From IMG/VR virus record IMGVR_UViG_3300045922_000579, positions 1-28,684 of that record: a stretch of 28,684 bases of DNA; one strand, written 5' to 3'. A program made the position numbers and the translations under genes. The DNA is from a virus. Below are positions 1-28,684 of the stretch, in pieces; the first letter of the stretch is position 1; each line of letters opens with the position of its first letter. The notes below the pieces were generated by a model. That model ran no database searches and was not told the DNA's origin. It saw only the letters and a list, made by a program, of their open reading frames with translations.

Positions 1-99
1 CCTTTTTTAAAGTGTGATTGATTAAATTTTACGTTACAAAGATACAACAGAAAATTAATACGATGCAAATATTTTTTTATATTCTTTTGTATATTTTTT
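1..99. repeat. Left copy of exact 99-bp terminal direct repeat
   Basis: The first 99 bases are identical to bases 28586-28684, and the match stops at base 100. The repeat falls inside a promoter (minus strand) that only makes sense if the two ends are joined. A short exact end-overlap of this size is what a de Bruijn assembler leaves on a circular contig. I therefore read it as assembly overlap on a circular or circularly permuted genome rather than a biological terminal repeat. Confidence 0.9.
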
Positions 100-134
100 C
101 TAAATTGTTGATTATCAACGAGAAAAAATTTTGT
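1..134 (-). promoter_or_regulatory. Repeated minus-strand promoter module, copy A
   Basis: Read on the minus strand this module has a TTGATTATCAA box (118-108), then exactly 40 bp later a -33 TTG (68-66), a 21-bp spacer and a -7 element TATCTTTG (44-37). A conserved leader containing AATCACACTT follows. The -33/-7 pair fits the Bacteroidota sigma consensus TTG-N19-21-TAnnTTTG. The promoter part is duplicated at 28622-28653 because of the terminal overlap. There it lies 43 bp upstream of the start codon at 28578, so it should drive the hexapeptide-repeat protein and the DUF4326 gene. Copies B (3681-3815) and C (14968-15100) share the whole layout. Confidence 0.8.
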
Positions 135-637: not shown

Positions 638-1909
638 ATGGATATATTGTTGTCGCCTAAGCAATACGAGTTCTGCACATCCGACAAGCGGGAGACGTTC
701 TACATATCAGGCATAGGGAGCGGGAAGACATTCTGCTTAGCGGCTCGGGCATTAATTGCATTGTCAGTAAGCGGTGCTGTTATAGCCATATATGCTCCTA
801 CTACTAAGGTGCTTAGGTTCGCAACTCTTAGGGGGCTTGTCAGTGCTTGGGAAAAAATGGGGTTCGTCAATGGTGTGCACTACGTTGTAGATGTAAGACC
901 GAAGTGGAAGCATGTTAAGCCATTCTCGGTTAAGGACAATAAGGGAATACTTACGACTGTATGGGGAAGCTATGCTATTCTTGACGGGTTGGACAATTAC
1001 AACTCTCAACGTGGGCAGGAATTAGATGAGATATTCGTCGATGAGTTCCGAGATATAAGACCGGAGGCAAGGGATGTTCTTATAGGAAGACTTCGGGGCC
1101 AAACTTATAAGAATCTTAAGAAAGAGCATAGAATCTGGTATGCTACCACACCACCAGATAACCCTTATTATTTGCAGAAATTGGCTGCTGAATGTACTGA
1201 TAATCAGAAGTTTATATTTGGAACTACTTATGACAATATAGATAACCTGCCACCTGGATATATTGAGTCGCAAATATCCACATTAGACCCTGAGACGATA
1301 GAGAGAGAAATAATGGGAAGGTTTGTTTTTACAAACGGCAAGCGATTTGCGTACATGTTTTCTAAGGAGAAGCATATAGGGACAACACACATAAACGATA
1401 GATTGCCGCTATACTTATCATTCGACTTCAACCTCGACCCTGCTACATGTATAATTGGGCAACACACTGAGAATTACATACATATCCACGGCGAGATAAG
1501 ACTAAGGAATGCTTCAATATACGACGTATGTTCTGAGATAAAGCGGCGGTATCCTGGTTATATCTATGTAATAACAGGAGATGCTGCGGGCAATTCTCGG
1601 GAGAAAGCTACCCGTGACCTTACATCTATGTATGATATTATACAGATGGAACTTGGATTGCCATCGCATCTTATCCAAGTAGATAAGCACAACCCTACAC
1701 ATAGGACCAACCGGACACTTGTTAATTCAATTTTTCAACATTTAGAAGTTATAATTAATCCATCGTGTGAATATCTAATACAGGACTTAGATATGGTCCA
1801 ATGTGATGAGACGGGCTCAATAGATAAGTCCAACAAGGAGCTGACTCACCTGTTGGACTGTTATAGATATTATGTAAATCAATGGTTCTCTTGGTTTTTA
1901 CGGGTCTAA
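638..1909 (+). CDS. terL: Terminase large subunit
   Basis: A 423-residue phage packaging motor that uses ATP to move DNA into the procapsid and cuts concatemers. The ATPase half shows a Walker A GIGSGKT (25-31), a Walker B IFVDEF (132-137, acidic pair D135/E136) and the coupling motif YATTPP (168-173). The RNase H-like nuclease half has its three acidic positions: D263 (SFDFN), D315 (GDAAG) and D407 (HLLDCYRY). All key residues are present, so the protein should be active. Length is typical of a compact TerL. It follows the 141-residue gene with a 4-base gap. Its TAA overlaps the TAG of the convergent nuclease gene. The likely small subunit is about 3.8 kb away at 5758, not adjacent as in most phages. 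Confidence 0.95.
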   Translation: MDILLSPKQYEFCTSDKRETFYISGIGSGKTFCLAARALIALSVSGAVIAIYAPTTKVLRFATLRGLVSAWEKMGFVNGVHYVVDVRPKWKHVKPFSVKDNKGILTTVWGSYAILDGLDNYNSQRGQELDEIFVDEFRDIRPEARDVLIGRLRGQTYKNLKKEHRIWYATTPPDNPYYLQKLAAECTDNQKFIFGTTYDNIDNLPPGYIESQISTLDPETIEREIMGRFVFTNGKRFAYMFSKEKHIGTTHINDRLPLYLSFDFNLDPATCIIGQHTENYIHIHGEIRLRNASIYDVCSEIKRRYPGYIYVITGDAAGNSREKATRDLTSMYDIIQMELGLPSHLIQVDKHNPTHRTNRTLVNSIFQHLEVIINPSCEYLIQDLDMVQCDETGSIDKSNKELTHLLDCYRYYVNQWFSWFLRV

Positions 1910-2568
1910 ACCGAGAAAGGGTCTATGTCTTGTTCTTCTTGTTCACCATCTACGAACCTTATGGACCAATCATTAGCCTCCGTTACTTTTTGCGCAATTA
2001 ATTGTATATCAGCATCATTGCGCTGCACGTATATTAGTTTTATGCGCTCAACATCACCGAACCGATGTAGTGCTTCTTCTTCTCTATACAATAGTTCAAC
2101 CGGAGTATCTACGAGTACATAAGCGAGTATTGCGAGTTCTGCACCTGTAAGCATCATATACCCTTGCAGCTGCCAATAGTATTCTGTTGGTATCTTATTG
2201 GTCTGTCTATATGATGCTAAGGAATACAGCCAGTTAGCTCGTGTGAACGGGCACTTAACATCCAATACTGTTTTTGTTTTTTTTGTACTTGATAAAAAAT
2301 TATTCTGAAAAATAACGTCTGGAGTCCCTTCTATCCATTCATTCTCATATTTTTGCTCGTTTTTTGACAAATCTATATTTAAGTATTCGCTAATCATTTT
2401 AATCGCTTCATTCTCAACTAAAATACCTTTATGCATCTCACGTGAATAGGTAGAATAGCTTACACCACGCTGTTGGCTGTCATACAGCTGGCATATGTAC
2501 TTCTTAGCTGTGTCTGTTAATTTTTTTCCCTCCATAATGTTATGGAGGGAATGGCAACGGAATTTCAT
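1906..2568 (-). CDS. Lambda-exonuclease/YqaJ-like nuclease
   Basis: A 220-residue PD-(D/E)XK nuclease of the YqaJ/lambda-exo type, expected to resect one strand of double-stranded ends so that RecT can load. Visible motifs are KGILVENEA with E52, GTPD (D84), LDVKCPF (D103 and K105) and WQLQGYM (Q133), the order expected for this family. It lies 4 bases downstream of recT on the same strand, the usual exonuclease-annealase pairing. The start is uncertain. ATG at 2568 gives MKFRCHSL..., while ATG at 2535 (MEGKKLTD...) removes 11 residues. A perfect 12-bp inverted repeat (2526-2551) covers the second ATG, so I prefer the first. Its stop overlaps the terminase stop in convergent orientation. Confidence 0.88.
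   Translation of the reverse strand: MKFRCHSLHNIMEGKKLTDTAKKYICQLYDSQQRGVSYSTYSREMHKGILVENEAIKMISEYLNIDLSKNEQKYENEWIEGTPDVIFQNNFLSSTKKTKTVLDVKCPFTRANWLYSLASYRQTNKIPTEYYWQLQGYMMLTGAELAILAYVLVDTPVELLYREEEALHRFGDVERIKLIYVQRNDADIQLIAQKVTEANDWSIRFVDGEQEEQDIDPFSV
2526..2551 (-). promoter_or_regulatory. Perfect inverted repeat over the alternative nuclease start
   Basis: TTCCCTCCATAA and TTATGGAGGGAA form a perfect 12-bp inverted repeat separated by two bases. On the minus-strand mRNA the hairpin contains the ATG at 2535 and the GGAGG just after it. It could hide an internal start and set the ratio of exonuclease to RecT, or act as a processing site. It lies within the coding region if translation starts at 2568. 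Confidence 0.6.
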
Positions 2569-2572
2569 ATTA

Positions 2573-3454
2573 TTATTCTATTATTAAGTCCACGCAATCA
2601 ATAGACACTACCTTGGCATTATACATCTCAATAAGATCAGAATCTCCTGTATCCATTACATCTTTTTTAAGCTCCTTAGCCTCTTGTGCCGTCTCTATTG
2701 CTGCTATGCTATCATGTAGCCACTGCGTCTTTGTTACAGCATTCTCTTTGAGCTCGATATACTCTATGTCCTTAGTATCTTGTTCTTCTTCTTCTTCCAC
2801 TTCTACAAGAACGTTGCTTACTATTGCATAAGTCTTCATGATTGACAATAGTACGGTTTTGCATGCCATGTCGTTGAACTCGTCCACCCACACTCCGAAC
2901 AGTTCACCGTCTTCATTCTTTGATTTTGAATATTTTTTTGCATGCGCAATAACTTGCTCTATTGTCCAATAGCAAGCTTTTTTGAACCCGTGAATGGTCT
3001 CGAAATATGAGTAATAACCAACAATCTCATCATCAGGTGTAATATCTATCTGAGTAATTGTCATCTCTTCGTTGATTCTGTCCCATTTTGGGCTCTCACG
3101 TTTGTAGATAGGTATAGAGGCTATTCTTCTGTACTGGTTGGTTCGCAATGCCAACTGTATTAATCCCTTGTATCCAAGTATAAACTTTACATCATATATT
3201 TTGTTTTTGCTGTTCCAGTATTTGATAAAATAGCAATGTCCAAGTGATGGTGATACATTGAGACCCAGTTCTATTGCGTGCATAGCTGCCTTATACACTG
3301 ACTTAGGGTTTATGTTTGTTAGATCGTTGTTCTGAACAATCTGGAAAATTGCGGTTGCGAATTGTCTCGCTCTCGTTTGCGTACCTAATAGTTCACATAG
3401 ATTTTTCTGAACGTTCTCAGAAAAAAGGAATTGTTTGTGTGTTGTAATATCCAT
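2573..3454 (-). CDS. recT: RecT-family single-strand annealing protein
   Basis: A 293-residue RecT-type annealase that coats resected single strands and anneals them to complementary DNA for phage recombination and concatemer formation. Recognition rests on the family core: ELGLNVSPSLG (residues 62-72), FILGYKGLIQLA (91-102) and a central KKACYWTIEQVIAHAKKYS segment. An acidic low-complexity stretch (EVEEEEEQD) follows the core. The frame is open further upstream, but those codons run back through the stop of the preceding gene. ATG at 3454 (MDITTHKQF) is chosen because it gives a normal RecT length and leaves a 7-base gap after the 70-residue gene. The partner exonuclease follows after 4 bases. 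Expression should come from promoter module B. Confidence 0.92.
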   Translation of the reverse strand: MDITTHKQFLFSENVQKNLCELLGTQTRARQFATAIFQIVQNNDLTNINPKSVYKAAMHAIELGLNVSPSLGHCYFIKYWNSKNKIYDVKFILGYKGLIQLALRTNQYRRIASIPIYKRESPKWDRINEEMTITQIDITPDDEIVGYYSYFETIHGFKKACYWTIEQVIAHAKKYSKSKNEDGELFGVWVDEFNDMACKTVLLSIMKTYAIVSNVLVEVEEEEEQDTKDIEYIELKENAVTKTQWLHDSIAAIETAQEAKELKKDVMDTGDSDLIEMYNAKVVSIDCVDLIIE

Positions 3455-3461
3455 AGTAGTT

Positions 3462-3674
3462 TTAAAAATTTTTACCTTGACAATAATATTTTTTATATGC
3501 CCATTTTTCGACAATTGCCAATTCGTCATCTGTTAGATCGTACTTTTCTTGAATCATCTCCATTCTTGCGTTGAGCCTGTCATAACCGCAACCTTCATCT
3601 ACTTTGTCGAAGTAGCAGTAGGCTGACATCATCTCTGAGAAAGCAGCCTTTGGGATTTGTCTTTTTGTTTCCAT
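3462..3674 (-). CDS. Small early protein, unknown function
   Basis: A 70-residue protein, first gene of the recombination operon, not recognised. It is largely helical and charged (MEMIQEKYDLTDDELAIVEKW, residues 38-58) with a few cysteines and no membrane segment. The start at ATG 3674 is supported by a good AAAGGAG ribosome binding site a few bases upstream, one of the few clear Shine-Dalgarno sites here. Upstream codons in the same frame translate the promoter and are rejected. Position in front of recT and exo, and control by module B, suggest an early or recombination-related accessory role, but this is inference. Confidence 0.75.
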   Translation of the reverse strand: METKRQIPKAAFSEMMSAYCYFDKVDEGCGYDRLNARMEMIQEKYDLTDDELAIVEKWAYKKYYCQGKNF

Positions 3675-3680
3675 TTTTTT

Positions 3681-3815
3681 CTCCTTTGTTAAGTGTGATT
3701 TAAATTTTATGATACAAAGATAAGAACAAAAATTAATACCATGCAAATATTTTTTTATATTTTTTTGTATATTTTTTGCAACTAATTGATTATGAGTTAG
3801 AAAAAAATTATGATT
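3681..3815 (-). promoter_or_regulatory. Repeated minus-strand promoter module, copy B
   Basis: Same layout as copies A and C. On the minus strand it carries a box TTGATTATGAG (3786-3796, last three bases diverged), a 40-bp interval, -33 TTG (3746-3744), a 21-bp spacer and -7 TATCTTTG (3722-3715). A leader with AATCACACTT follows, and AAAGGAG before the ATG at 3674. It should drive the small gene, recT and the exonuclease. On the opposite strand a TATCTTTG at 3844-3851 may fire towards the HTH gene. Confidence 0.82.
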
Positions 3816-3883: not shown

Positions 3884-4246
3884 TCAGTTGGTTTCCCCAA
3901 TTGTTCTGCCCCCTTTCTTTTTTAAATACGCTTGTGCCTCCGCTTCAATTTCAGCGTTTTACTTTTTACGCCCTTCTTTAAGATATTCCAGTAATTCAGT
4001 ACGGGAAAAGTACAGGCGTTTGCTTCGCTTCATTACAGGCAATTCGCCTTTTGATACCTTGCTGTAAAGCGTCGGTACGGTAAGGCTCAAAAATTCGGCT
4101 GCTTCCTGAATAGTTAAAAGCTGTTCCGGTTGTTCGGTGGGTTCAACCGTTTGGGGTAGGGTTTCTTTCAAAACCTTGCGAACTGAACTTTGTATTAAGT
4201 TGCTTAATTGTTCGCTGTCTAATTGTATTATTATAATTGAACTCAT
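3884..4246 (-). pseudogene. Excisionase-like HTH protein with premature in-frame stop
   Basis: A helix-turn-helix protein of the HTH_17/excisionase type common on Bacteroidota conjugative and integrative elements. From ATG 4246 it reads 95 residues to a TAA at 3961-3959. Residues 43-89 form the domain (LLTIQEAAEFLSLTVPTLYS, then RLYFSRTELLEYL). After the stop the same frame continues for 24 codons (NAEIEAEAQAYLKKKGG...) to a TGA at 3886-3884, and that tail resembles the usual C-terminus of this family as I remember it. The gene therefore looks truncated by one nonsense change, although the DNA-binding domain is complete and a 95-residue protein may still work. It could be a residue of a mobile element or a recruited regulator. 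Confidence 0.7.
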
Positions 4247-4349
4247 TTTTGAAATTATTACTGCTGCAAAAAAACAAAGCAAAGAATACCCCAATCAATA
4301 CCCATTTACACTATGGGGTACGTTTGGGGTATAATTCGTTTTAATTCCT

Positions 4350-4413: not shown

Positions 4414-4444
4414 CAAAATTACAAACAAAATCTATAAAAAACAA
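4414..4444 (-). promoter_or_regulatory. Promoter for the HTH gene
   Basis: On the minus strand a -33 TTG (4444-4442), a 20-bp spacer and a -7 TAATTTTG (4421-4414) fit the Bacteroidota consensus. The downstream leader is about 160 bases long and contains the 16-codon open frame and GGGGTA/TACCCC-type repeats (around 4293-4332). Such GGGGTA-rich stretches may be element-end or regulatory sequence. Confidence 0.6.
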
Positions 4445-5183
4445 CGGTTTAGTAGAAAAAAAATGTTGTTTTTTTATTTCAAAAAAAAAGAAAAATAATT
4501 AACTAATTGATTATCAATAACTTTTATTTACAAAAATAGAGGGTAAAAAACCTGATTTTTAAGCGTTTTTAAAAAAAAATAAAATAAAAATCATTTTGCC
4601 GTTCATTTTTTACAAAAATGACTTCTTCGTCTCCAAAAATAGTAGACACCTTGTACATCATATTCTTTTATTTTTTTACCGCACAAAATTAAATAATTTG
4701 TATGATTTAAAAAAATAATTTGTATTAAGAAAATATTTTTTTTTACACTTTTTTATACTTTTTTACACTTTTTAACAAATTTTAACAGATTTTAAGCAAT
4801 TTTATAACTTGTTGATTATCAACAAAATAAAAAAAACGATAAAAATAAATATGTAATCAATCAGTTTACAAGTTATTGATTATCAACAAAATAAAAGAAC
4901 TTAAAACAAAAATTTACTATAACGTGCCAAAAAATTTCATCCAAAAACGTAATTAATTGATTATCAAGAAGAAAAAATTTTCAAAAACACTTGCTTTGTA
5001 TTCGTGTCTTTATTTTTTTTATTATTATACACATATATTATATTAAAATATAATATATTATATATAATAATAATATAAGGAGATTATTTTCTTTTTTTTT
5101 GCTTCTTTTTTTTTCTTTTGTTAACAAAAAAAAATATTTTTCTCTTAAAGATCTTTTTAAAAAAAAAAAAAAATAAAAAAAAT

Positions 5184-14601: not shown

Positions 14602-14967
14602 CTAAAAATAGCACGTTAAAAATCCTTGCTTAGTCTTAAGCGTTGCAGACCCCAATCCAGAACGGGAATGTATCCAAGCAGTGCACTTAACACCGTGCGT
14701 ATCGTCGTATAGGATAGCTGCAGTCTCATAAAATTCGCCATGATAGATAATTTCGCCAATGAATTGAATCTTTTTTGGCTCTCCTATGTAATCAATTGCC
14801 TCTGGTAAGAACCAAGCTCTAATCTCCTCTTGATCTTCATCGTCTTCTTGGCTTTTTGTCCCTATTATGTAGTTTAGTTTTTCTTCCTCGTCTAAATAGG
14901 TTAACAAGCCGTTGTGCAATGTTAGCTTATCCTTGTCTGGAGCTGAATAGATTTCTATTTTTTTCAT
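14602..14967 (-). CDS. Hypothetical acidic protein under promoter module C
   Basis: A 121-residue protein not recognised by sequence. The first half is strongly acidic (TKSQEDDEDQEEIRAWF, about residues 37-53) and the second half is beta-rich with a repeated hydrophobic pattern (IQFIGEIIYHGEFYETAAIL). No membrane segment. ATG 14967 follows the conserved leader with AATCACACTT and a poly-A stretch, as in the other two module-driven genes. Upstream codons in frame translate the promoter. It stands alone between two convergent or opposed transcripts. An acidic protein expressed from an early-type promoter could be a small host-takeover or DNA-mimic protein, but I have no direct evidence. Confidence 0.75.
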   Translation of the reverse strand: MKKIEIYSAPDKDKLTLHNGLLTYLDEEEKLNYIIGTKSQEDDEDQEEIRAWFLPEAIDYIGEPKKIQFIGEIIYHGEFYETAAILYDDTHGVKCTAWIHSRSGLGSATLKTKQGFLTCYF

Positions 14968-15100
14968 TTTTTTAAGTGTGATTAAATTTACGTTACAAAT
15001 ATACGATAGAAAATTAATACCATGCAAATATTTTTTTATATTTTTTTGTATATTTTTTGTAAATGATTGATTATCAGGAAGAAAAAATTTCATAATTTTT
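14968..15100 (-). promoter_or_regulatory. Repeated minus-strand promoter module, copy C
   Basis: On the minus strand this has the box variant TTGATTATCAG (15067-15077), a 40-bp interval, -33 TTG (15027-15025), a 21-bp spacer and -7 TATATTTG (15003-14996). The leader with AATCACACTT ends at the ATG at 14967. Interval and spacer are identical to copies A and B. A plus-strand promoter for the tRNA begins within the same segment. Confidence 0.82.
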
Positions 15101-15102
15101 TT

Positions 15103-15132
15103 TTGTGTTTTTTAAAATAAAAAGTATATTTG
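15103..15132 (+). promoter_or_regulatory. Promoter for the tRNA gene
   Basis: TTG (15103-15105), a 19-bp spacer and TATATTTG (15125-15132) fit the Bacteroidota consensus. The -7 element ends 11 bases before the mature tRNA 5' end at 15144, so the primary transcript would need very little 5' trimming. Confidence 0.7.
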
Positions 15133-15143
15133 CGTCAATAAAT

Positions 15144-15215
15144 AGCTGGGTAGTGAAGTGGAATCATGCTGGGCTCATAACCCAGCGACCGCAGGTTCGA
15201 ATCCTGCCCCAGCGA
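15144..15215 (+). tRNA. tRNA with anticodon CAU, initiator-like
   Basis: A 72-base cloverleaf. The acceptor arms AGCTGGG and CCCAGCG pair except at the first position (A1-G72). The D stem is GTGA/TCAT with one wobble. The anticodon stem is CTGGG/CCCAG with loop CTCATAA (anticodon CAU). The variable loop is CGACC. The T stem is GCAGG/CCTGC with loop TTCGAAT, and the discriminator is A. No CCA is encoded. The unpaired 1:72 position and the three G:C pairs next to the anticodon loop are hallmarks of bacterial initiator tRNAs, though the D stem has T11:A24, the elongator type. Elongator Met or Ile2 (modified C34) are alternatives. Confidence 0.88.
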
Positions 15216-15248
15216 CTCCTATTTTTAGTCTATAATAATTTTTATTAA

Positions 15249-15259
15249 TTGATTATCAA
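15249..15259. repeat. TTGATTATCAA box within a longer palindrome
   Basis: An exact box extended to ATTAATTGATTATCAATTAAT-type symmetry (palindromic except for the central base). It overlaps the stop codon of the minus-strand gene at 15256 and lies about 35 bases after the tRNA. Same box as in the origin-like region and the promoter modules. Confidence 0.6.
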
Positions 15260-15552
15260 TTAATAATGACATTGTCAATATATTCTCCGTAATTAGGTTC
15301 TGGTCTTATGTAGTAGTATTCAGACCCAACTTGCACCATGAACGGAATAGAATATATTGTCACATTGGGCACGAATGACACATACCCACCAGACACAGTC
15401 ACATTGTGCACGTCCATTCTGCCATCTATGGTAATAGTTACCTGTACAATAGTGCCATTAGGGATGGTAGTTGCGATCTTAATACTTCCAGTGAAGCAGG
15501 ATGGTATAACTGCTACATTATTGCATCCGTTCGTTGTTACTATGTAATCCAT
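15256..15552 (-). CDS. Small beta-rich protein, unknown
   Basis: A 98-residue protein (MDYIVTTNGCNN...) made of short predicted beta strands (TTIPNGTIVQVTITIDG, VTVSGGYVSFVPNVTIYS). It has no helices of note, no membrane segment and no catalytic motif. The style resembles small decoration, Ig-like or fiber-associated virion proteins, but it sits on the minus strand away from virion genes. ATG 15552 follows a minus-strand promoter with TTG (15598-15596), an 18-bp spacer and TATTTTTG (15577-15570). The stop codon lies in the TTGATTATCAA palindrome. Function unknown. Confidence 0.7.
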   Translation of the reverse strand: MDYIVTTNGCNNVAVIPSCFTGSIKIATTIPNGTIVQVTITIDGRMDVHNVTVSGGYVSFVPNVTIYSIPFMVQVGSEYYYIRPEPNYGEYIDNVIIN

Positions 15553-22375: not shown

Positions 22376-23599
22376 ATGTCAGTAACAGCATCAACTAACT
22401 TCGGCAATGGTTGGAGCCCTTGGCTATGTCCTGTGGCTCTTATACTTGCACAAGCCTATTCTATGGCTAACCCTCAATTGACAGGGTATAATGACGGCTT
22501 CTTGGAGAGCTTAGCGTCTCCTGATAACATGGCTAATGGGCCAATTAAGCTCGATTCGTTCGGGGAGAACCAGATTAGAATCGCATACAAACAACGGCGA
22601 TTAGCTTCTACCGTATCTACTACGCCGGTATCCGCATGTTCTACGCAGACGTCTGATGTTTTAAAGGAGGACTTATTAACAGTAGATAAGTATGTATCGT
22701 CTGGGTGGAGCCTAACAGTAAGCGAATATGCAAAATTCTGCGAAGAGATAGCAACGGCGATTAACAACGTTAATAACGTATTCGCTGGGCTTAACCAGCC
22801 GCCTGTATCAACACCAGCAGACCTTAACAGAGTAAGAGCTTCTGCGCCTGCATTGATGGCACTTATATCAAGCATGCCGTTTACCTATCACAACATTAAC
22901 TCGTTCATCGAGTGTCAGAATCGCCTCAGACATAAGATGAACATTGGGTTGGTACAAGAGTTGTACGCAAGCTTCGTCGGTGGATTCGCCGCTCCTAACC
23001 AATCTGCTTCGCCATTGGCTGTCAACATCGTAACAGCTGCTAATGGTTCTCTTGTGCAAGGAGGGTTTGGCAGAATCAACTTCGAGTACAAAAAAGCACA
23101 ACAAAGTGGCATGCCAATTATTGTTGGCTTCAATAATGTAGAGATTGCATTGAGCTCGATGACTAATTACTGCTGCAACACTGTTGGATCTGGTGCTGGT
23201 GATATGGTGACCCTTGATCCTAATAGACGAGCTGGCACATTCATGATGCACTATTACGCTGACCAAGCTATCCCAGACACGGCTAACGGAGCTTCTACTA
23301 CTGAGGACTTCATCGTTTATTCTCCAGGTGCTCTCAAGATGTTCACACGCAACGAATGGACGGGCGCAAGGGCTAAGACTTGGGGGGATGGTGTTACGCT
23401 TGGCACTGTGGCTGATGTAAGAGTACCAGGATTAGAATGGGATTTCGCTGTTCGTGAAGAAGGTTGTACAGAAAAAATTACCTTCAATATGGGAGTTGCT
23501 TATGCCCTTTGGGGCTTATTACCTGGCACAGCTTATGCCACTGGTGATGTATTAGAAGATGTAAATGGAGTGTTCCACTTCACTGCTGTAGCTATCTAA
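22376..23599 (+). CDS. Major capsid protein
   Basis: A 407-residue protein assigned as the HK97-fold-type capsid subunit. Support: size, the strongest-looking promoter and leader, and internal features such as SSMPFTYHNINSFIECQNRL (residues 161-180), KAQQSGMPIIVGFNNV (240-255), NRRAGTFMMHYYADQ and the C-terminal PGLEWDFAVREEGCTEKITF. These match the style of capsid proteins of Bacteroidota siphoviruses. No membrane segment or enzyme motif is seen. The scaffold and portal genes are far upstream (10.5-14.6 kb), which is unusual. A second virion protein follows after one base. Confidence 0.75.
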   Translation: MSVTASTNFGNGWSPWLCPVALILAQAYSMANPQLTGYNDGFLESLASPDNMANGPIKLDSFGENQIRIAYKQRRLASTVSTTPVSACSTQTSDVLKEDLLTVDKYVSSGWSLTVSEYAKFCEEIATAINNVNNVFAGLNQPPVSTPADLNRVRASAPALMALISSMPFTYHNINSFIECQNRLRHKMNIGLVQELYASFVGGFAAPNQSASPLAVNIVTAANGSLVQGGFGRINFEYKKAQQSGMPIIVGFNNVEIALSSMTNYCCNTVGSGAGDMVTLDPNRRAGTFMMHYYADQAIPDTANGASTTEDFIVYSPGALKMFTRNEWTGARAKTWGDGVTLGTVADVRVPGLEWDFAVREEGCTEKITFNMGVAYALWGLLPGTAYATGDVLEDVNGVFHFTAVAI

Positions 23600-26753: not shown

Positions 26754-27237
26754 TCCAAAGACAGGTGATCTTGTCTTCTTCCGTGATAAATTGACATGGA
26801 ATCCAATGACATGGCTTGCTAAGCTTATACAATGGATAGCTGGGATTACGCACAACCATGTGGGTGTAGTTGTTGTAGAAGACAATGGACAAACATACAT
26901 ATACGAGGCTGTAAAAGAAGGCATAGTTGTTAGACCGTTATGGTTACGGATACATAATAGAGACATAATGATTAGGAGACCAAAAAAGGAATCATCTTGG
27001 GTTAAACATCGGGCTAAGAATGCAGTAGGTACTAAGTATGACTTCGCCGGTCTGCTATGGTTCCAGTTGTTGTATGCGATATTCGGTCGGTGGTTTGGAT
27101 ATAAGGGTGATAAGGCTGGGTCAAGGTTCTACTGCTACGAGTTCGCCGCATATGTCCATGACTACCCAAATTGGCAAATGGTTAAGCCTAAGGAGTTTAT
27201 CAATAGTAGTGACTTCTATACTATTGATTATTATTGA
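26740..27237 (+). CDS. YiiX/permuted NlpC/P60-type hydrolase, candidate endolysin
   Basis: A 165-residue enzyme of the permuted papain-like/NlpC-P60 (YiiX-like) type. The motifs in order are GDLVFF (residues 9-14), NHVGVVV with H40, YIYEAV with E56 and YCYEFAA with C132. This permuted order (His first, Cys last) is as expected. No signal peptide is seen, so it would need the holin to reach the cell wall. It follows the holin and fiber genes, typical of lysis modules. The stop overlaps the convergent DUF4326 gene by 7 bases. Substrate (cell-wall peptide versus lipid or other amide) is not certain. Confidence 0.8.
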   Translation: MEITSPKTGDLVFFRDKLTWNPMTWLAKLIQWIAGITHNHVGVVVVEDNGQTYIYEAVKEGIVVRPLWLRIHNRDIMIRRPKKESSWVKHRAKNAVGTKYDFAGLLWFQLLYAIFGRWFGYKGDKAGSRFYCYEFAAYVHDYPNWQMVKPKEFINSSDFYTIDYY

Positions 27238-27596
27238 TTGGATAATTGAATCAATAAATCAGCGTGGCATTTTTCTTTAAGCCTACACCAGCAGCTAAGA
27301 TTTCTACCTTTTAGGTGTTGTATGTCAATTTTTACAATCGCTAACCACCTTCGATAGCATTCAATTGCATCAATAGCCGCTTCGTCTCTTGTCTCATAAA
27401 AATAACGACAATGCTTGATAAACAACTCTTTACATGTATCGCTGCCATCTGTTTCTATGCGCCATTTTTTGTTTTTGCACTTTACAATTCTGAATGGATT
27501 GCCCCATCTACTGCCCCGCCCTACATAGACAATTGGCAATCCATTCGGAGATACTTGCTTATATTGCCTACTTCTTTGTATCCTTACAGGTTTCAT
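27231..27596 (-). CDS. DUF4326-family protein
   Basis: A 121-residue protein with the DUF4326 signature: VYVGRGSRWGNPF (residues 23-35) at the start and LKGRNLSCWCRLKEKCHADLL (94-114) at the end. These motifs hold conserved Cys and His residues that could bind metal. Function is unknown; the family is common in phages. It overlaps the hexapeptide-repeat gene upstream (same strand) by 29 bases and the hydrolase stop by 7. Expression should come from promoter module A as the second gene. Confidence 0.85.
   Translation of the reverse strand: MKPVRIQRSRQYKQVSPNGLPIVYVGRGSRWGNPFRIVKCKNKKWRIETDGSDTCKELFIKHCRYFYETRDEAAIDAIECYRRWLAIVKIDIQHLKGRNLSCWCRLKEKCHADLLIQLSNQ
27232..27256. terminator. Weak AT-rich hairpin at convergent stops
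   Basis: TATTGATT (27232-27239) pairs with AATCAATA (27249-27256) around GGATAATTG. It lies where the plus-strand hydrolase gene and the minus-strand DUF4326 gene converge. A/T-only pairing makes it a weak bidirectional terminator candidate. Confidence 0.35.
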
Positions 27597-28578
27597 TGAA
27601 TCCTTTTGTTTTTAGGAATTCTATAAGTTCATAATAATTTCCTTGCCCTTTGTATTTTTTATCCACCAATTTTTTAAATTCTTCAAGATTACCGTAGAAA
27701 CATCCTGCTGCTATTGTTTTTTCTAAGTAATTAATGGTAACGTATCGATTGCTATCGCCATAAGGCCCCAATACTTGATAATCTTCTGTTGTCAGAACTT
27801 TGCCTTTTATTATCGCATTGCCTTTTATTATCGCATTGCCACTTATGTAGGCATTGTCAGTTAGAATAACATAATCGCAAACTTGGGCATCGCCACTTAC
27901 GTAAGCATCCTCACGAACTTGAGCATTGTCACTTACGTAAGCATTGCCAGTTATTTTAGCATTGCCGGTTACAATAACATTGCCACTTACGTAAGCCTCC
28001 TCACGGACTTGGGCATTGCGACTTACTTTAGCATTGCCACATACGCAAGCATTGTCAGTTACATAAGCATTGTCAGTTACATAAGCATCTTCAGCTACGC
28101 AAGCATTGTCACGAACTTGAGCCATGTTAGTTATTTTAGCACTGCCTTTTACTAAGGCAGTGTCAGTTACAATCGCATCATCACCTACGTAAGCCATGTT
28201 AGTTATTTTAGCATTGCCGGTTACATTTCCACGGACTTGGGCATTGTGAATTACGATAGCATAACCACTTACGCAAGCATTGCCACGGACTAAGGCATAA
28301 TCACATACAATAGCATTGCCAGTTACAATAGCCTCCTCACAGGCTTGGGCATTGTCACGGAATTTAGCATTGCCACGAACAATAGCATTGTCATAAATTT
28401 TAGCATTATCATAAATCCAACAGTCACCCTTATGCGATAGGTTATGTTCAGATTCTACGAAGCCACCTAAGTCTCCTTCTTTTACGTCGCTGAATGTGAA
28501 TGAGCGTAATGCTTGGATTCTGTATAGAGTTCTTCCATTGAACTTAATCGTCTCATCCGTCAATCTGTACTTTTTCAT
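27568..28578 (-). CDS. Hexapeptide-repeat beta-helix protein
   Basis: A 336-residue protein in three parts: an N-terminal domain (YRLTDETIKFNGRTLYRIQAL, then VKEGDLGGFVESEHNLSH, residues 4-49), about 200 residues of six-residue repeats of the form xxVxGN/DA (residues about 50-265), and a C-terminal domain (PYGDSNRYVTINYLEKTIAAGC... to the end). The repeats predict a left-handed beta-helix rod. This domain set recurs in many phage and Bacteroidota proteins without known function. ATG 28578 follows promoter module A and a ctccttt-type ribosome site on this strand (AAAGGAG). The 18-bp repeat DNA includes recent exact duplications, so the rod length probably varies. Confidence 0.82.
   Translation of the reverse strand: MKKYRLTDETIKFNGRTLYRIQALRSFTFSDVKEGDLGGFVESEHNLSHKGDCWIYDNAKIYDNAIVRGNAKFRDNAQACEEAIVTGNAIVCDYALVRGNACVSGYAIVIHNAQVRGNVTGNAKITNMAYVGDDAIVTDTALVKGSAKITNMAQVRDNACVAEDAYVTDNAYVTDNACVCGNAKVSRNAQVREEAYVSGNVIVTGNAKITGNAYVSDNAQVREDAYVSGDAQVCDYVILTDNAYISGNAIIKGNAIIKGKVLTTEDYQVLGPYGDSNRYVTINYLEKTIAAGCFYGNLEEFKKLVDKKYKGQGNYYELIEFLKTKGFNETCKDTKK
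27801..28400 (-). repeat. 18-bp-period tandem repeat array inside the beta-helix gene
   Basis: The DNA encoding the hexapeptide repeats has an 18-base period. Two neighbouring pairs of units are exact: TGCCTTTTATTATCGCAT (27801-27818 and 27819-27836) and AGCATTGTCAGTTACATA (28048-28065 and 28066-28083). Others differ at a few positions, so the array mixes old and new copies. Confidence 0.9.
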
Positions 28579-28585
28579 TTTTTCT

Positions 28586-28684
28586 CCTTTTTTAAAGTGT
28601 GATTGATTAAATTTTACGTTACAAAGATACAACAGAAAATTAATACGATGCAAATATTTTTTTATATTCTTTTGTATATTTTTT
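28586..28684. repeat. Right copy of exact 99-bp terminal direct repeat
   Basis: Identical to bases 1-99. Joining the ends gives a circle of about 28,585 bp and places the intact regulatory region (box at 108-118, promoter at 37-68 / 28622-28653) directly upstream of the minus-strand gene starting at 28578. Confidence 0.9.
28622..28653 (-). promoter_or_regulatory. Right-end copy of promoter A core
   Basis: The same promoter as described at 37-68: TTG (28653-28651), 21-bp spacer, TATCTTTG (28629-28622). It is 43 bases upstream of the start codon at 28578. Confidence 0.8.

Follow-up and report, generated by a model that had tools for sequence, protein, structure and literature searches.

The box that recurs at the promoters of this phage appears to be an IHF-type core sequence, WATCAANNNNTTR, lying upstream of primary sigma promoters of the ordinary kind (-33 TTG, -7 TAnnTTTG). 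From sequence comparison, we consider it reasonably probable that a host HU/IHF-family protein binds such cores upstream of Bacteroidota primary sigma promoters, bends the DNA and boosts the phage promoters. The bend, at about -67, -78 or -89, would let upstream DNA or the protein itself meet RNA polymerase. Because this action would be confined to one face of the helix, the allowed distances would be about 27.5, 38.5 and 49.5 bases, with a weaker preference for about 60 bases. Phages carrying the element probably borrow a host DNA-bending activator.

The window, i.e. the whole stretch of 28,684 nucleotides analysed here, is the IMG/VR record IMGVR_UViG_3300045922_000579. Its positions 1-99 are identical to 28586-28684, and this exact 99-base terminal overlap marks the record as a closed circular genome of 28,585 bp. 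The ends overlap on the circle, and module 1 therefore reads into the gene starting at 28578. An earlier sequence-only reading had described three near-identical promoter modules; these exist, all on the minus strand, with boxes 0, 2 and 1 changes away from the consensus, and all three share the 21 bp from the -33 TTG to the -7 element and the common leader AATCACACTT, as that reading had stated. Its distance of "exactly 40 bp" from box to -33 TTG is likewise constant in all three, but comprises 39 intervening bases (40 is the count of steps). The modules and their genes are as follows.

101-118, minus strand: module 1 IHF-type site (sequence match), TTGATAATCAA-CAAT-TTA; box 108-118 is TTGATTATCAA, exact
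37-68, minus strand: module 1 promoter; -33 TTG at 66-68, 21-base spacer, -7 TATCTTTG at 37-44
10-19, minus strand: module 1 leader AATCACACTT; the module runs on across the circle joint
27568-28578, minus strand: module 1 gene, beta-solenoid (hexapeptide-like) protein
27231-27596, minus strand: second gene of the module 1 unit, DUF4326 protein
3779-3796, minus strand: module 2 IHF-type site (sequence match), CTCATAATCAA-TTAG-TTG; box 3786-3796 is TTGATTATGAG, 2 changes
3715-3746, minus strand: module 2 promoter; -33 TTG at 3744-3746, 21-base spacer, -7 TATCTTTG at 3715-3722
3691-3700, minus strand: module 2 leader AATCACACTT
1906-3674, minus strand: module 2 unit; small protein 3462-3674, RecT 2573-3529, YqaJ/RecE-like exonuclease 1906-2568
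15060-15077, minus strand: module 3 IHF-type site (sequence match), CTGATAATCAA-TCAT-TTA; box 15067-15077 is TTGATTATCAG, 1 change
14996-15027, minus strand: module 3 promoter; -33 TTG at 15025-15027, 21-base spacer, -7 TATATTTG at 14996-15003
14974-14983, minus strand: module 3 leader AATCACACTT
14602-14967, minus strand: module 3 gene, acidic protein of 121 aa with no family match

The core promoters are of the same kind as the TTTG / TAnnTTTG promoters of the Bacteroidota primary sigma factor (-33 TTG/TTTG and -7 TAnnTTTG, about 19-21 bases apart), with a spacer of 21 in the three modules and 20 in a fourth promoter described below. Start maps of B. thetaiotaomicron (PMC7366714) and F. psychrophilum (PMC9723704) describe -7, -33 and sigma motifs, and the passages on the start maps in these two papers contain no upstream phased element. 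The three modules are paralogous (85-92% identity across the 39-base gap from box to -33), so that the fixed spacing within this genome is explained by duplication and is not independent evidence.

Further copies of the box lie elsewhere in the window. Exact TTGATTATCAA occurs 6 times, against 0.05 expected for TTGATWATCAA under a local first-order Markov model, and the full TTGATWATCAANNNNTTR occurs 5 times, always on the minus strand, against 0.005 expected over both strands. Besides that of module 1, exact boxes start at 4507, 4812, 4876, 4957 and 15249. The core WATCAANNNNTTR is fitted by 7 of the 8 boxes of the window on the minus strand and by none of the 8 on the plus strand.

4500-4517, minus strand: fourth site, perfect TTGATAATCAATTAGTTA; box 4507-4517, 62 bases upstream of a -33 TTG
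4414-4444, minus strand: fourth promoter, before the HTH_17 gene; TTG at 4442-4444, 20-base spacer, -7 TAATTTTG at 4414-4421
3959-4294, minus strand: HTH_17 / excisionase-like DNA-binding protein
4805-4822, minus strand: fifth site, perfect TTGATAATCAACAAGTTA; adjoins AT-rich repeats, no promoter at a phased distance
4869-4886, minus strand: sixth site, perfect TTGATAATCAATAACTTG
4950-4967, minus strand: seventh site, perfect TTGATAATCAATTAATTA; upstream T-tract as in modules 1 and 3
15249-15259, strand unassigned: eighth box; lacks both the NNNNTTR extension and a promoter, and overlaps the end of the gene at 15256-15552
4739-4804, strand unassigned: tandem AT-rich 10-bp repeats up to the box at 4812; might act as the unwinding element of an origin

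The eighth box is probably not the same element. The central base of the box is T on the plus strand in all 8 boxes of the window; we rejected this as meaningful, A and T being equally common across phages. The sequence bears out the suggested connection with the 4.5-5.0 kb region: four more sites lie there, in the most AT-rich part of the genome and beside the 10-bp AT-rich repeats. The cluster at 4500-4967 sits in the genome's GC minimum (20%), and the boxes at 4812 and 4876 each contain the DnaA-like TTATCAACA, one base off the DnaA box. The repeats at 4739-4804 with the adjoining boxes suggest a candidate replication origin, and AT-rich repeats beside a cluster of such sites would fit an origin that uses a bending protein. 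The element would serve to boost the three duplicated promoters, and probably the HTH_17 promoter too, with three further sites in an AT-rich, putatively replicative, region.

In other phages the element recurs at distances one helical turn apart. IMG/VR was scanned for TTGATAATCAA and TTGATTATCAA, each followed by 25-55 bases and then TTG-N20/21-TAnnTTTG, the wide range of gaps acting as an internal control; the counts are lower bounds and a sample (at least 120 stretches per scan), and redundant matches were recognised by the 9-mers they share rather than from a phylogeny. Among the matches listed, 90 of 164 non-redundant viral ones have gaps of 27-28, 38-39 or 49-50, i.e. 6 of the 31 positions (p = 6.6e-24 against a uniform distribution), and 0 of 5000 uniform sets reached the periodicity observed in these 164. 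Power at 11 bp, again among the matches listed, is 54.6 with the NNNNTTR extension (n = 89) against 2.1 without it (n = 75), where the distribution is flat and many matches resemble coding sequence. A scrambled box of equal composition, TTCATWATGAA, was likewise flat, with 37 non-redundant matches, 6 on phase, a power of 0.2 and none with NNNNTTR. Farther sites gather in a weaker peak at 59-62 bases, a range that covers the 62 bases of the site at 4507. At boxed phage promoters an ATG follows the -7 element after a median of 38 nt, and because the downstream genes are unrelated, the element looks like a general promoter booster and does not seem to mark a regulon. No boxed promoter is present in five named phages of Flavobacterium, Cellulophaga and Riemerella. 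The Riemerella phage RAP44 carries one perfect TTGATTATCAATAAATTA at 45237-45254, about 100 bp upstream of the integrase gene, which might be either a promoter element or a bending site of the att region.

The phased sites also define what the motif is. On-phase viral sites read TTGATWATCAA-nn-A-G-T-T-A, with T, T and A/G of the extension in 82, 89 and 86% of them. The three peaks are still present in a scan that required only ATCAANNASTTA and ignored the left arm (50 of 88 non-redundant matches on phase); the base preceding ATCAA is W in 96%, and the full TTGAT arm is retained in only 13 of the 50 on-phase sites. Since the peaks persist without the left arm, the required core is WATCAANNNNTTR and the palindrome is an optional preference. 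This core is the IHF consensus known from E. coli and printed in PMC5963220. Its commonest form in the phage window is YTTGATWATCAANNAGTTAY, and a direct scan of lambda attP gave three matches to the IHF consensus, one of which, AATCAACTACTTA, agrees with WATCAANNASTTA, the form seen in Bacteroidota. A preference for the TTGAT arm nonetheless remains (T 86%, G 64% and A 70% at three positions), beyond what IHF requires. Sites are directional, the right extension NNASTTA being found in 67 of 202 and the left one, TAASTNN, in 33 of 202. An IHF-type site would have an A/T tract about 8-15 bases 5' of the core; a T-tract is present in modules 1-3 and at the 4957 site, and positions -11 to -13 of on-phase sites are 92-94% A/T, yet both flanks are AT-rich. 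We found no earlier description of the element in the open-access literature on its sequence, on Bacteroidota upstream elements or on IHF sites.

These properties bear on the strongest alternative, namely that a host HTH-dimer transcription factor recognises TTGATWATCAA as a dyad and makes direct contact with the polymerase, as Fis or CRP do at class I sites, the likeness to IHF being coincidental. Most strong sites do carry a perfect dyad, which in some phage sites is lengthened to TAACTnnTTGATWATCAAnnAGTTA, and helically phased positions near -67, -78 and -89 are typical of a class I activator. We nevertheless judge this reading unlikely: the site is directional, the phasing survives a degraded left arm, and the part that is required equals the IHF consensus. 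It is quite improbable that no extra protein is involved and that the site is a UP-type element read by the alpha subunits of polymerase, or acts through intrinsic curvature. In its favour, the gap is AT-rich and has A/T tracts, but UP elements adjoin the -35 region and are degenerate A/T tracts, whereas the present site is a defined 18-mer in which C and G occupy fixed places, recognisable 50-60 bases away.

In the genomes of potential hosts, we searched for TTGATAATCAANNASTTA-N13..43-TTG-N20-TAnnTTTG over 84,980 bacterial and archaeal species genomes. The full architecture was present in 55 stretches, all 55 from Bacteroidota, with a gap of 39 in 26 and of 49 in 9. Downstream genes are rplM (L13) in about 25, many of these matches being related to one another, as well as rpsA and rpsF-rpsR-rplI. 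A 16S rRNA gene follows in three stretches (Rfam), and three more stretches with related leaders are directed towards the ends of their contigs. Hosts seldom carry the perfect site (50 copies in 296 genomes, the reversed pattern giving 4), and rplM promoters chosen irrespective of the motif mostly lack it, with one perfect and one degenerate copy, gap 39; host use is therefore lineage-specific. The degenerate core ATCAANNNNTTR before promoters gave 30 matches in 247 host genomes with no clear phasing, so the site is not general in hosts. In several Bacteroidota genomes the box lies in a conserved setting near position 1500; in the four inspected, it is upstream of a DEAD-box RNA helicase gene beside an rdgB-like gene, with no clear TTG/TAnnTTTG promoter at a phased distance.

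This distribution, which reaches beyond the phage and its relatives, leaves little of the proposal that a phage-encoded regulator, e.g. the HTH_17 protein (3959-4294), recognises the box and ties the three units into a regulon of the phage. The HTH gene does adjoin module 2, and a box lies upstream of it as well. Even so, we hold a dedicated phage regulator and a specific regulon to be very improbable, because many unrelated phages carry the same phased element before genes that are themselves unrelated, and it is also present at the rplM and rrn promoters of hosts; the word "operator", in the sense of a repressor site, is equally unsupported. Negligible likelihood attaches to the view that the modules are recent duplicates without a functional box, their spacing due to descent only: the 85-92% identity across the gap agrees with it, but unrelated phages show the same distances and also the next helical positions, which refutes it as a full account. 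What endures of the single regulator deduced from helical spacing is that, judging by unrelated phages and hosts, one factor very probably acts at all three modules and helical spacing matters; the paralogous copies themselves are no proof of it.

Recurrence of the element in unrelated phages and at host ribosomal promoters points instead to a general host DNA-bending activator. We infer that the factor on the site is a host-encoded protein of the IHF/HU family, that its effect is activation and that bending is the means. That the element raises transcription is suggested by its presence at rplM and rrn promoters. The phage proteins that were scanned gave no HU/IHF match. PF00216 proteins are present in 20 of 21 Bacteroidota genomes. 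One host with an rplM box had two PF00216 proteins scored, one HU-like and the other best with IHF-beta models, the latter scoring below the NCBIfam IHF cut-offs. Unusual diversity has been reported for the HU/IHF proteins of Bacteroidetes (PMC5683647). Some Bacteroidota would use the element for translation genes (rplM-rpsI, rpsA, rpsF-rpsR-rplI and rrn), and phages of the phylum have probably adopted it. Going further, we tentatively raise the possibility that Bacteroidota have a general IHF-/Fis-like activator of translation-apparatus promoters that acts from phased sites on their unusual primary sigma promoters, and that a large and diverse group of their phages captured these sites and so ride on growth-linked transcription.

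Known systems offer partial parallels. IHF-assisted promoters in Proteobacteria include lambda pL and ilvPG. With the IHF sites of Proteobacteria (lambda attP), the element shares the core consensus WATCAANNNNTTR, the asymmetry, the use in phages and promoters, and the helical dependence expected of a bend; the AT-rich upstream flank and a use in origins may be further likenesses. It differs in belonging to Bacteroidota and to promoters of a different sigma factor, in its fixed phased positions upstream of -33, and in its extra preference for TTGAT before the core and AG within the N4. In Enterobacteria, rRNA and ribosomal promoters have upstream sites in helical phase for Fis, an abundant nucleoid-type protein. 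Phased upstream sites at translation-gene promoters are a likeness to these Fis-activated promoters, from which our case departs in that the motif is not a Fis site, the rrn/rplM use is restricted to part of the Bacteroidota, and activation is putative. Descriptions of Bacteroidota promoters comprise two short elements, and general activators in the phylum are poorly known. If the proposal is true, a strictly phased 18-base site would be a general upstream element for Bacteroidota, and it would give a direct bait for its protein and a means of adjusting gene expression in Bacteroidota of the gut and the environment.

No close relatives of the phage were found by megablast, in IMG/VR via peptide patterns of RecT or of the protein at 22376-23599, by tblastn with the latter protein or by searching with the module's own -33 region; terminase and RecT as queries returned distant phages only. 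Apart from RecT and the exonuclease, the phage proteins that were scanned included no recognisable polymerase, primase, integrase or replication initiator. Rfam matched nothing in the window except a tRNA. This tRNA-Met (CAT) at 15102-15216 has its own plus-strand promoter, TTG-N19-TATATTTG, divergent from module 3. The beta-solenoid protein gene at 27568-28578 contains some 23 imperfect 18-bp (6-residue) coding repeats.
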